Assembly: GCA_020072645.1 (NCBI GenBank)
Contig: JAIQGK010000024.1
Span: 1-61,985, forward strand
Direction: 5' to 3'
DNA: 61,985 bases
Source: Terriglobia bacterium
Lineage (GTDB): Bacteria; Acidobacteriota; Terriglobia; Terriglobales; Acidobacteriaceae
Numbering within the stretch: the stretch's first letter is position 1; each line of letters begins with the position of its first letter. The translations under genes and the position numbers were made by a program. This document shows, one piece after another, positions 24,315-29,680 of this stretch. The notes beneath the pieces are model-generated. The model did not search any database. It was not told the DNA's origin and saw nothing but the letters and a program-made list of their open reading frames with translations.

Positions 24315-25283
24315 CTATTGGTTTGCAGCTTTTGTTGCATTGCCATTGCTTGCTTGTTTCTCCTGCGCCGCGGTCTGCTCCTCAATGTAGCGAATGATAT
24401 AAGCGGCATCCACATCAGCCACGTAGATGTTGGGCATCCGCACGTTGTATTTTTTCAGGAGCGCCGTTGCAACCGGGTCCTTTTCATTGAGCATCTGGTC
24501 GGGGTGCTGAATGATTTGCGTTAGCCATTGCCGGCTGCGGACGTGATTTACGCCCAGCAGATCTGGTCCCACCTTGTCTCCGTGTCCGATGGTATGGCAC
24601 GCGACACAATCCTTTCCGAACAAATATTTTCCTCTATCGAAGTTTTTGAGCGGGCTTCCGTCACCACTCGCTTTCTCGGCCGGGTTGTCGTGCTTGAAAT
24701 TATCGAGAAATTCGCCAATCATCCTGGCTTGAAAGCCGGGATTGTCCAGGGCGGAACTACGTACCCATTGGCCGGTGTCCTCATTGCCGATCAAAAGATG
24801 GGCAATATGGCCATCTGCATTCACTGCAGGGGTGGTATAAAGTCCCAGCCTCTTGCCCAGAAAAATAATGTCCTCTTTCTTGCCCGTCAAAAACGTCCAT
24901 CCCGGCCCCACATGAAATTGCTGCATGTAGGCCCTCAATACCTCCGGTGTGTCGTGGTCCGGATCAATGCTGATGGAATAAAAGAAGATATCTTTGCCTA
25001 CACGGTCACCCAGCTTCTTCTGCACCTGCGCCAGGCGCGCCGTTTCCAGCGGACATGAGTATTGGCACGTGGTGTAAATGAGATCGATGGCGACGATCTT
25101 GCCTTTGATCAGATCATCATAGAAATGGACTTTTTTTCCGTCCTGAGTGATGAGCTCGACGTTGGGAAAGTGGCTTGAATCGGTCCCATTGGCGGCCACT
25201 GGTTTGGCTGCGATCACCAATGCAAAGATTGCAACAGTAATGAGCGAAATGAAGGTTGCGTTCTTCCAATTTTTTGTCGACAT
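24315..25283 (-). CDS. SCO1/SenC-cytochrome c fusion protein
   Basis: The 322-residue product starts with a signal/anchor (FISLITVAIFALVIAA). Residues of about 35-195 are a SCO1/SenC thioredoxin-fold domain with the copper-binding TTCQYSCPLE motif (CxxxC near residues 74-78) and the later SISIDPDHDTPEVL. Residues of about 205-310 are a cytochrome c domain with CVACHTIG (haem-binding CxxCH) and a later VRMPN methionine as likely sixth ligand. SCO proteins deliver copper or control thiols for oxidases. It lies downstream of, and on the same strand as, a multicopper oxidase, which fits a periplasmic copper/electron-transfer pair. The fused haem domain is an uncommon arrangement. Confidence 0.88.
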   Translation of the reverse strand: MSTKNWKNATFISLITVAIFALVIAAKPVAANGTDSSHFPNVELITQDGKKVHFYDDLIKGKIVAIDLIYTTCQYSCPLETARLAQVQKKLGDRVGKDIFFYSISIDPDHDTPEVLRAYMQQFHVGPGWTFLTGKKEDIIFLGKRLGLYTTPAVNADGHIAHLLIGNEDTGQWVRSSALDNPGFQARMIGEFLDNFKHDNPAEKASGDGSPLKNFDRGKYLFGKDCVACHTIGHGDKVGPDLLGVNHVRSRQWLTQIIQHPDQMLNEKDPVATALLKKYNVRMPNIYVADVDAAYIIRYIEEQTAAQEKQASNGNATKAANQ

Positions 25284-25455: not shown

Positions 25456-27774
25456 TCATGCATTAGGAAGAATTTCGTCTGGCGTTTCGAAAGTGACGCC
25501 AGTCGGTTTTGAAATCGGTGTCGGCAATGGGCTAAGGAACGGCGTTCCACTGTCGATGTCCCACCGCAACAACATGGCATTGTCTTCATGCATGGTGTTG
25601 TGGCAATGCTCCATAAACATCCCGCCCCAATCCCGGAATTGCATCTTGAGGGTTACGGAGCCGTTGTCACGCAGACGGTAAACGTCCTTGCGGCCGCTCT
25701 CCGCCGGTGACGGCGGGTTGCCGTTGCGGTTGAGGATCTGGCCTTCTTCAAAGTGGATGTGAATGGGATGGTCCCACCCGGAGCCGCCTTGCAAGGTCCA
25801 GACTTCGGCTGTGCCAAATCCTGGTTGGGAGCTGATTCGGCCGTAGTCCGCTTCGAGTGTTCCTCCTGTATCACTGGCGGTGATGAGGCTACTGCTGCCG
25901 CCGCTATTATCGGTCTCGATGCCCCAGCGGAAGGAGCCTTGACCGTTCCCCAGGTAGGTGGTGACGGGATCATTCTGGTTCTGATCGCCGTTGTCATCAA
26001 ATCGGAACGTGCGTTGCCGCGCTGTCGCCGGTAAGATGGGATTCGGAATCAACGCGGTTCTTGGATTGGCAGTTAAATCAACGCTCTGGTCCGGTTGCGG
26101 CGGCGGGCCCAGGACCTTGAAGCGCAGGAATGCGCCCACAGCCGGGTCGCTTGTACCGGCGAGGGCCTGGGCCACGGTTACGATCTGCGCAGGTTCACGG
26201 CCGTCCTGGTGCACCTGCAAGTTGACCAGGTCCACGGTTTGCCCGGCATGGTAGCGGGAGAAATCAATGACGATGTCATACCGCTCCGCGATGCCAAGCT
26301 GGTCCGTCTGGGTGAGAGGAACGGTGACAGGCAGCAGGTTACCGTCATTCGCTATCTGCACGAATTGAGAGCTATCACTCAATGCCACCACAAAGAAGCG
26401 TGACACGCTGGCGTTCAGGATACGGAAGCGATACCTGCGCGCATACACGTTGAAGAATGGTTTCCAGGCGAAGTTGACAGTCATCTGGTCGGCCAGAAAA
26501 CCATCAAAAGCGATATTGTCCATGTTGAGCTGTCCGTTGGCGTCCCAGGCTTTGTCCGCGAGCATGAGGTTGACGTCAAAGTCCAGGTTGCCCCAGCCCT
26601 TGCCATTGGAGGAGCCGCTGGGCAGGCGCAGGTTTACACCGTCATTCACAGTTTCGTCACCGCGATCCAACGAGCTGTAAATGTTGTTCATGCCGGCGTT
26701 GCACTTGTACACGTTCTGGTCCGTGAAGGTGAACATATGATCGTGGAACCAGTGCGTGCTCATGGTCTCGTGCCAGTCGCCCGGAACCTTGTTGATGCCG
26801 CCGGAATCACTGGGAGCGCCGGCGCGCGGATCGGTGGCGCCGGTATTAATGCTGGTAAACCCCGCCAGCACCCACGGCCAATGGTAGTCATAGAACTGAT
26901 TAGGCCAGAAATAAGCCCCGGTGAAACCATCGTTCTCCGCGCCGTGGTGAGCATTGTGTTCATGCGTGGTGAGCGTGTATCGCCCAAAGCCGCCGTTATT
27001 CTTGATGTTAGTTGTCAAGCCGTTGTGATGGCGGAACAAGACCGGTTCACCATAGCGGACCTGCGTCAGCTTGGGAGGAAAGGTGCCCTGGAACGTCCAT
27101 ACCCGGTTTGCATTCTGAGTTGGGAAGTTGGGATGAAATTTTGCCGGGATGGCTACGGCCGGATTGATTCCAGAATTCAAGTCTGGGGTCACCTGCGGAT
27201 TGTAAGTAGTATTCGAGGTCACTGGTTTGGTAGTGACCTCAATTGCTACCTGAGGAGGGAACTGTGCAAACCGCTGGTGCGCCCAGTTCGCTCCCGGGGG
27301 ACGACCCTCAATCGGGCCCGTGGTTCCAGCGGGAAACCCGAAACCGGGATCAAGCACTTGCTGCGTCTGGTTGGACTGTTCCATCGGCGCGGGATTTAAG
27401 GTTGACACGGCGTTGCGCCGCAGGACGTCGAAACGCGGCATCGGCTGGGTAAACGGCTTGACACCAAACAAGGGACTTGCGGGTAGCCCGGTAGGGATTC
27501 CCTGATTGTCAGAGTTGCCCGCAAGGAGCGCACTCGGTGATGGCGACTGGCCCACCGCATATCTGACAAATGGATTTAGACCCCTGATCGGCAGCATAAG
27601 GCCGGCGCTTGTGAACAAGCCCCATTTGACCAGATCACGCCGTCTAATCTGGCCATGGGAGAGTGCCTTAGTAATTTCCGCGCGGTTTTGTCGTGCATTT
27701 TCCGCGTCACGGATTCGTCTTTTATCTGAATGTTCTGACAACCAAATACTGTCATCTCGATCTTTTCGGGACAT
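25456..27774 (-). CDS. Multicopper oxidase, Tat-exported
   Basis: The 772-residue product has a twin-arginine signal near residues 48-65 (RRRDLVKWGLFTSAG). All four copper-binding stretches are visible: THEHNAHHGAEND near residue 270, HWFHDHMFT near 343, HPIHIHFEEG near 668, and MEHCHNTMHEDNAML near 725. The last stretch supplies the type 1 His-Cys-His and a Met axial ligand. The enzyme would oxidise a substrate and reduce oxygen to water in the periplasm. Substrate could be metal (Mn, Cu) or phenolic; the sequence does not tell. It is larger than CueO/CotA (about 500 residues), with an insert after the signal. The SCO-cytochrome c gene follows. Confidence 0.93.
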   Translation of the reverse strand: MSRKDRDDSIWLSEHSDKRRIRDAENARQNRAEITKALSHGQIRRRDLVKWGLFTSAGLMLPIRGLNPFVRYAVGQSPSPSALLAGNSDNQGIPTGLPASPLFGVKPFTQPMPRFDVLRRNAVSTLNPAPMEQSNQTQQVLDPGFGFPAGTTGPIEGRPPGANWAHQRFAQFPPQVAIEVTTKPVTSNTTYNPQVTPDLNSGINPAVAIPAKFHPNFPTQNANRVWTFQGTFPPKLTQVRYGEPVLFRHHNGLTTNIKNNGGFGRYTLTTHEHNAHHGAENDGFTGAYFWPNQFYDYHWPWVLAGFTSINTGATDPRAGAPSDSGGINKVPGDWHETMSTHWFHDHMFTFTDQNVYKCNAGMNNIYSSLDRGDETVNDGVNLRLPSGSSNGKGWGNLDFDVNLMLADKAWDANGQLNMDNIAFDGFLADQMTVNFAWKPFFNVYARRYRFRILNASVSRFFVVALSDSSQFVQIANDGNLLPVTVPLTQTDQLGIAERYDIVIDFSRYHAGQTVDLVNLQVHQDGREPAQIVTVAQALAGTSDPAVGAFLRFKVLGPPPQPDQSVDLTANPRTALIPNPILPATARQRTFRFDDNGDQNQNDPVTTYLGNGQGSFRWGIETDNSGGSSSLITASDTGGTLEADYGRISSQPGFGTAEVWTLQGGSGWDHPIHIHFEEGQILNRNGNPPSPAESGRKDVYRLRDNGSVTLKMQFRDWGGMFMEHCHNTMHEDNAMLLRWDIDSGTPFLSPLPTPISKPTGVTFETPDEILPNA

Positions 27775-29048: not shown

Positions 29049-29113
29049 CGACCTGAAAGACTTGCTGCGCATCCAATGCCTCTATTGCTGTAAGCCAATT
29101 TCAGGAGAAGCTA

Positions 29114-29680
29114 ATGGCGGTTTCGTGGAACAAGGACATAGACGCAGCGCTCAGCCAGGGCAAAACCCAACACAAGCCCGTGCTGGTTGACTTTAGCGCT
29201 GCTCCAGCGTGAGGAGCATGCGCTCGGCTGGAAGCCGAATCGTATGCTGACCCTCAACTCGCATCGTTCATCGACCAGAAATTTGTGCCTATTGGGGTGC
29301 ACATCAAAGAAAATCCGGCTGGGTTCCATCGCTTTGATTCAGTCTGGACGCCAACCGCGCTGGTGCTGGACGAAAACGGCAAAGAGCGTCATCGCATAGA
29401 AGGTTATTTGCCAAAAGATGAATTTGCCGCACAGTTGCTGCTGGGACTGGCGCGGGTCGCCTTTATGCAGAAGAAATGGGCGGACGCGGAAAAGCTTTAT
29501 GATGAGATCCTTCAGGAATATCCCAACAGTGAGGCAGCGGCGGAAGCGGTTTACTGGAAAGCCGTGAGCCAATACAAAGGCAAACACGACCACACTGTAC
29601 TGGGCGAAGTGCAGAAAACGCTTCAGCAAAAGTATCCCAACAGCATTTGGGCAAAGAAGGCAATTCCCTGGGCAGCCTAA
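29114..29680 (+). CDS. Thioredoxin-fold selenoprotein, Sec at UGA 29210-29212
   Basis: The frame from ATG 29114 to the stop at 29680 is open except for TGA at codon 33. A strong Shine-Dalgarno sequence (CAGGAGAAGCTA) precedes the ATG. The N-terminal part is thioredoxin-like: KPVLVDFSAAPA, then the TGA, then GACARLEAESY. The motif is therefore Sec33-Gly-Ala-Cys36, with Sec in the nucleophilic Cys position of CxxC. Downstream are FVPIGVHIKENP and the cis-Pro region VWTPTALVLDENG. A TPR-like segment (RVAFMQKKWADAEKLYDEIL, YPNSEAAAEAVYWKA) ends the protein, 188 codons in all. A stable hairpin directly after the TGA fits a bacterial SECIS. Conventional callers would start at 29285 and lose the active site. 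A nonsense mutation is the alternative, but the position and hairpin argue against it. The 3' end overlaps dinB by 4 bp. Confidence 0.85.
29213..29248 (+). promoter_or_regulatory. Candidate bacterial SECIS stem-loop
   Basis: Starting 3 nt after the UGA, 29215-29222 (AGCATGCG) pairs with 29241-29248 (CGTATGCT), with one G-U. A small internal loop follows, and then 29225-29229 (CGGCT) pairs with 29233-29237 (AGCCG). The apical loop is GGA. The first loop G is 18 nt after the UGA, within the 16-37 nt spacing described for bacterial SECIS elements that bind SelB. Confidence 0.8.

Follow-up and report, generated by a model that had tools for sequence, protein, structure and literature searches.

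A very probable selenoprotein family with a thioredoxin fold and a TPR-like tail in Acidobacteriota

A reading frame in a contig of a Terriglobia bacterium (Acidobacteriota) is interrupted once, by a TGA lying where a thioredoxin-like protein would have the first Cys of its CxxC motif, which raises the question of whether this codon is read as selenocysteine (Sec) and what kind of protein would then be made. The window, i.e., the whole stretch of 61,985 nucleotides that was analysed, had been annotated from its letters alone as containing an uncharacterised selenoprotein at this locus. Direct reading bore out the proposed ATG at 29114 with its Shine-Dalgarno sequence, and the TGA at codon 33 is the sole interruption of the frame 29114-29680. 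Residues 33-36 read U-G-A-C, i.e., UxxC, in agreement with the claim that the TGA replaces the first Cys of CxxC and leaves the second intact. If no recoding is assumed, the plain ORF list yields only 131 residues from the GTG at 29285, just as the original prediction had anticipated for a routine call, and the active site is lost. The features of the locus are as follows:

29103-29107 (+): Shine-Dalgarno sequence AGGAG, 6 nt 5' of the ATG, read from the sequence
29114-29680 (+): predicted selenoprotein gene, 188 residues including Sec33, from ATG 29114 to stop TAA 29678-29680; read from the sequence, with a homologue in 46 genomes, its own included
29114-29437 (+): thioredoxin domain, residues 1-108, Thioredoxin_2 (PF13098), by Pfam (E 1e-13), structure model, and Foldseek
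29210-29212 (+): TGA, predicted Sec codon 33, first position of UxxC; TGA in 44 of 46 genomes, Cys in two
29215-29248 (+): predicted extended hairpin 3' of the Sec codon, 34 nt; fold of 29213-29250, -20.0 kcal/mol (z -4.45)
29219-29221 (+): TGC codon, predicted resolving Cys36 of UxxC; invariant in 35/35 rows of alignment A2
29223-29239 (+): predicted SECIS core of type A, CTCGGCT-GGA-AGCCGAA, with loop GGA at 29230-29232, 17 nt past the TGA; from codon conservation and pairing
29351-29353 (+): Pro80 of WTPT, at the cis-Pro place; invariant in 35/35 rows of alignment A2
29414-29674 (+): helical tail, residues 101-187, about two TPR-like hairpins; TPR_6 at 31.1 bits (cut-off 26.3) and structure model

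It is highly probable that the gene represents a genuine selenoprotein family of the thioredoxin type (Trx-TPR), Sec insertion itself being inferred. This central claim of the original prediction is supported computationally by the conserved TGA, the co-occurrence of selA, a set of frozen codons, and the fold.

Conservation of the TGA and the selenocysteine machinery

Homologues were sought in three overlapping genome samples, comprising 61 relatives (the window's own genome included), 396 genomes of the phylum, and 399 of the class. With repeats removed, 46 genomes have a full-model homologue, 44 of them with a single in-frame TGA and two (G020 and G610) with Cys at residue 33, which is the pattern of Sec and Cys that had been proposed as a check on the prediction. 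Among the relatives, 11 matches were obtained at E 1e-10, 10 with one TGA and G020 with none. The phylum sample gave 120 matching genomes at E 1e-15, of which 94 (below 90 bits, in most cases matching in the thioredoxin domain only, some with an internal stop) were excluded before counting and 26 exceed 100 bits nearly end-to-end on the model, one TGA being present in 25 of these and absent from G020. The class sample gave 16 matches at E 1e-26, 14 with one TGA and G020 and G610 with none. The 44 TGA genomes fall under 19 family codes, the TGA occupies the first place of UxxC in every one of them (34, nine further, and L084), and identity to the window protein reaches down to 24%. L084 (genome G447), whose start lies three codons ahead of its TGA, was left out of the codon, covariation, hairpin-rule, and tree counts; two loci come from a single-sequence search of genome contigs, and L009, whose contig equals that of L012 in length and gives the same match, was counted once. 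GGAG or GAGG lies at most 20 nt from the chosen start in 26 of 34 TGA members. No relatives were found in the viral contigs and plasmids searched.

Among the phylum-sample matches below 90 bits, other thioredoxin-domain frames with one TGA in the match or frame were also observed (e.g., G201, G207, G291, and G261), and a few have TAG or TAA instead (e.g., G385 and G177). Some of these TGA frames could be further selenoproteins or merely frame ends.

The selenocysteine machinery named in the original prediction as a check was recovered in the window's own genome: tRNA-Sec (Rfam 73.9 bits, cut-off 47; ARAGORN anticodon TCA), SelB (387.9 bits, cut-off 242), SelA (550.5 bits, cut-off 268), and SelD, the last with 35 conserved codons missing. 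Across the family, selA is present in all 44 TGA genomes (25/25 in the phylum sample, 9/9 further, and 10/10 new in the class sample) and in neither Cys genome, against a background of 252 of the 396 phylum-sample genomes. Under independent draws, 25 of 25 would correspond to p 8e-6, a guide only, as the genomes are related. G020 has no selB or selD over cut-off; in G610, selA alone was checked.

The gap in selD is an in-frame loss of 105 nt relative to four same-genus selD genes. It is clean and lies at a CGCC repeat (L062 985-2070; G000:C12, about 254484-255569), and the gene retains its own in-frame TGA. The missing stretch presumably holds metal- or ATP-binding residues, and selenophosphate supply in this strain may fail if the gap is real.

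Four same-genus genomes (G001, G004, G006, and G007) have selA, selB, and selD over cut-off and no match to the Trx-TPR gene, which is thus dispensable. At a further locus (L010 2122-2231), assigned to the same genus by its neighbours, a remnant of the gene was observed, with the first 25 and the last ~11 codons left; it adjoins homologues of the window's DinB-family gene and the next gene, and in its genome the coordinates of selA are the same as in G006.

An assembly error at the TGA, or a pseudogene, might be argued from the damaged selD of the same genome and from this deleted remnant; this possibility is nevertheless very remote, since the same TGA recurs in 44 genomes under 19 family codes, the frame stays open to either side of it, and the hairpin codons are frozen. 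At the level of the family, TGA conservation and the frozen codons refute it. A reading of UGA as Trp or another residue, by a different code or plain read-through, would be permitted by a lone in-frame TGA but is just as improbable, since TGA terminates 7 of the 29 open frames of at least 300 codons in the window, homologues that lack the TGA have Cys at that residue, and selA co-occurs with the TGA.

The hairpin and its two registers

For Sec to be inserted, the ribosome would read the UGA at codon 33 as Sec, enabled by SelB with Sec-tRNA binding the hairpin just 3' of it. The original prediction described a 36-nt hairpin with a GGA loop 3 nt past the TGA; the loop stands, and the size and place were close (34 nt, 29215-29248). 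Rules for bacterial SECIS elements, as quoted in a 2026 review and inventory, specify a loop of 3-9 nt with G in loop position 1 or 2, a distance of 16-37 nt from the UGA, an upper stem of 4-16 bp, and an energy of at most -7.5 kcal/mol (PMC13188914). The window hairpin agrees in loop, loop G, spacing, and stem (GGA, 17 nt, and 6 bp), so that the SECIS scoring suggested in the original prediction is borne out on these points. On energy, the outcome depends on the part that the rule intends: the whole hairpin reaches -20.0 kcal/mol and the apical stem alone -7.2, just short of the limit. Six of the seven type-A core pairs are formed, the outermost (C-A) not. Counting both strands, the window has 2095 TGA trinucleotides, and 92 of them come with a simple hairpin that satisfies the rules and is no less stable than this apical stem; therefore, the hairpin alone is not decisive, and it is the TGA in 43 further genomes together with codon conservation that takes it beyond chance.

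Two forms of the hairpin were recognised in the family. Type A (CUCGGCU-GGA-AGCCGAG) has its loop about 18 nt from the TGA and occurs in 32 members, with L029 in a variant form, and type B (UGGAUGC-CGUGAC-GUAUCCA) has its loop about 24 nt from the TGA and occurs in 12; the first 34 TGA members divide into 22 A (L029 included) and 12 B. Comparisons were made with synonymous shuffles, in which codons were exchanged among synonymous places within each gene, over a scan from Sec+1 to Sec+20. Type A shows elevated codon identity at Sec+4 to +9 (z 7.0 to 11.2); in type B the elevated stretch is Sec+7 to +11 (z 2.4 to 8.0), and the z-scores treat related genes as independent. Elsewhere up to Sec+20, codon identity is mostly ordinary, A also showing z 4.5 at Sec+15. 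At stem positions picked after inspecting these sequences, 6.45 pairs were observed in A against a shuffle mean of 4.32, and 6.83 in B against 5.04, values that 0 of 2000 shuffles reach in either type. Six or seven pairs are formed by 20 of 22 A members and by all 12 B members, and in a check on nine later members plus L084, all 10 have 5-7 of the seven A pairs. The codons of the proposed recoding signal are conserved beyond what the protein needs.

Under a strict simple-hairpin rule, 35 of 43 members pass, compared with a mean of 3.9 and a maximum of 9 in 200 shuffle rounds; the remaining 8, including the window's gene, miss its energy limit. The two Cys genes have no hairpin under the simple rule, and one of them (L087) still pairs six of the seven type-B stem places, without the loop G. 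Taken one gene at a time, the folding energy of the 42-nt region gives no uniform picture against synonymous shuffles: z is -2.8 for the window's gene and about 0 or above for several members, and the region is often no more stable than its shuffles. Covariation supports B, with two of seven pairs changed on both sides (reached by 12/500 shuffles), and is weak for A, the window's type, with one of seven (94/500 shuffles); a consensus fold of the A set keeps four pairs and shows no covariation.

Whether the SECIS has shifted by 6 nt within one protein family, with the Sec codon unmoved, is an even call. Four A members (L036, L075, L080, and L082) have Asp at Sec+7 and form six of the seven B pairs beside five to six A pairs, the dual-pairing region extending from nt 17 to 36 past the TGA. 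They may be intermediates, through which the switch passed without losing Sec; this is only weakly suggestive, because A members with Glu (L026, L033, L076, and L085) likewise reach five B pairs, a number close to the shuffle mean. In a tree built without the hairpin columns, the A members form one group and one A/B change suffices; an earlier tree with fewer members gave the A clade a support of 82/92. The tree favours no direction of the change: B as a single clade is not rejected (p 0.159), the support for A is 95/71, and long branches lead to the Cys genes. The two types might instead reflect paralogy, in line with one family code (f2) that includes genomes of either type, but no genome in the three samples has more than one match over 100 bits.

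Protein architecture, likely role, and relation to known families

A structure predicted with AlphaFold on the family alignment (mean pLDDT 96.3, pTM 0.91) has a thioredoxin fold to about residue 100, followed by helices at 101-118, 122-135, 140-157, and 161-173 and two short ones. The Pfam profiles detected in the window protein are Thioredoxin_2, Thioredoxin_7, and, at residues 109-139 and exceeding its cut-off, TPR_6; the C-terminal TPR-like extension that had been claimed is thus seen in both profile and model. At E 0.01, Thioredoxin_2 was detected in 35/35 members, TPR_16 in 18, and TPR_6 in 16, so the TPR part is recognisable by sequence in only about half of them. Residues 33, 36, and 80 are invariant in the 35 alignment rows, with UxxC in the 34 TGA rows. 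As modelled, the protein displays the features of the thioredoxin superfamily, namely the fold, (C/U)xxC at the start of a helix, and the opposite Pro, Pro80, which we take to be a cis-Pro facing the active site.

The redox pair would work as UxxC, in which Sec33 attacks, Cys36 resolves, and Pro80 faces both. The product would most likely reduce disulfides or other oxidised thiols in the cytoplasm, and the TPR-like part may dock a partner or client. A reductase function of the window protein is held with middling confidence; the cytoplasmic location is suggested by the lack of a visible signal peptide in a check by eye, and the reductase direction and partner binding are likewise putative. When ORFs were clustered in eight further genomes and two same-genus loci, no adjacent gene was found to be common outside the genus; among genes further away, three pairwise matches (clusters 11, 12, and 13) lie at varying distances. 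The neighbours are not conserved, and the genomic context therefore gives no substrate. Elsewhere in the window, an SCO1-like/cytochrome c fusion (24315-25283, -) and a multicopper oxidase-like protein (25456-27774, -) were noted by eye.

By Foldseek, the closest solved fold is the gamma domain of DsbD (1uc7; profile match E 5e-13), and DsbH-like proteins, thioredoxins, and YbbN are among the nearest. In DsbD, the gamma domain forms the periplasmic end of a membrane protein and carries CxxC, whereas the window protein is free-standing, has UxxC, and bears a helical tail.

Besides a reductase, a role like that of the chaperedoxins CnoX/YbbN, holdases that pass their clients to GroEL/ES, was considered, in which the TPR part would hold unfolded or oxidation-prone proteins and UxxC would protect or reduce their cysteines. 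Chaperedoxins share with the window protein the order of a thioredoxin domain followed by a TPR domain, and the Caulobacter CnoX retains CxxC and works as an oxidoreductase (PMC8129009); Foldseek places E. coli YbbN (3qou) and a homologue from Salmonella (3qdn) near the top, with alignments of 191-199 columns, tail included. However, the rmsd over these alignments is 10.4-12.5, which means that the domains are placed differently, and the window protein has 188 residues, about 95 fewer than the 280-285 of the 3qou and 3qdn chains, with Sec in place of Cys or Ser. The TPR domain described for E. coli CnoX has two subdomains of five helices each (PMC8129009), an arrangement that the four long and two short helices of the modelled tail do not reproduce. 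No NCBIfam match is named CnoX or YbbN, although NCBIfam may hold no such model. A chaperedoxin-like role is accordingly rather unlikely. Somewhat less likely still is a role as a peroxidase dependent on selenium, in detoxification, or in metal binding, in place of protein-disulfide reduction. Many thioredoxin-fold selenoproteins have unproven substrates, and predicted metal binding and antioxidant roles are mentioned in the 2026 review (PMC13188914); nonetheless, a UxxC that includes a resolving Cys, together with the Pro of WTPT, is the arrangement of thioredoxins, and the structures closest in fold are those of DsbD gamma, DsbH-like proteins, and thioredoxins. A disulfide reductase thus remains the preferred reading.

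The Trx-TPR family would be one among the bacterial UxxC selenoproteins with a thioredoxin fold. When the window protein was scored against NCBIfam, no model came over its cut-off; the cut-offs were applied to this protein alone, and a scan of 35 members was judged by best E-values. TsoB, Trx_VPGUxxT type 2, and Trx7/PDZ have part of the thioredoxin domain in common with the family (E 5e-11, 1e-10, and 5e-4), and the window protein lies far under their cut-offs (41.5 of 805, 41.7 of 275, and 19 of 300 bits, respectively). The 2026 inventory comprises 119 selenoprotein families or subfamilies, and no Trx-TPR selenoprotein, tetratricopeptide, or TPR is named in its main text (PMC13188914). The entry that comes closest, in its Table 1, is a thiol:disulfide interchange protein with PF13098 and UxxC (representative WP_011366075.1); the likeness to the window protein is one of Pfam domain and motif, and no TPR part is named for the entry. 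For the phylum, a 2006 survey counted three selenoprotein families and four selenoproteins in Acidobacteria (PMC1794560), and for the acidobacterium Occallatibacter riparius a 2025 tool paper listed three known selenoprotein genes and no new one (PMC12013277). The literature searched on selenoproteins of Acidobacteria, of Solibacter, or with TPR yielded no report of a Trx-TPR family. The label "uncharacterised" thus holds as far as NCBIfam and this literature go, and no further, and the family is very probably a real one that is not listed under its own name in current catalogues.

These findings add a Sec family that plain ORF lists truncate, in a phylum for which few families have been counted (PMC1794560). 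The Trx-TPR architecture allows Sec and Cys versions to be compared, and the two hairpin registers make it testable how an RNA signal within a coding region may relocate while the protein and the recoding persist.
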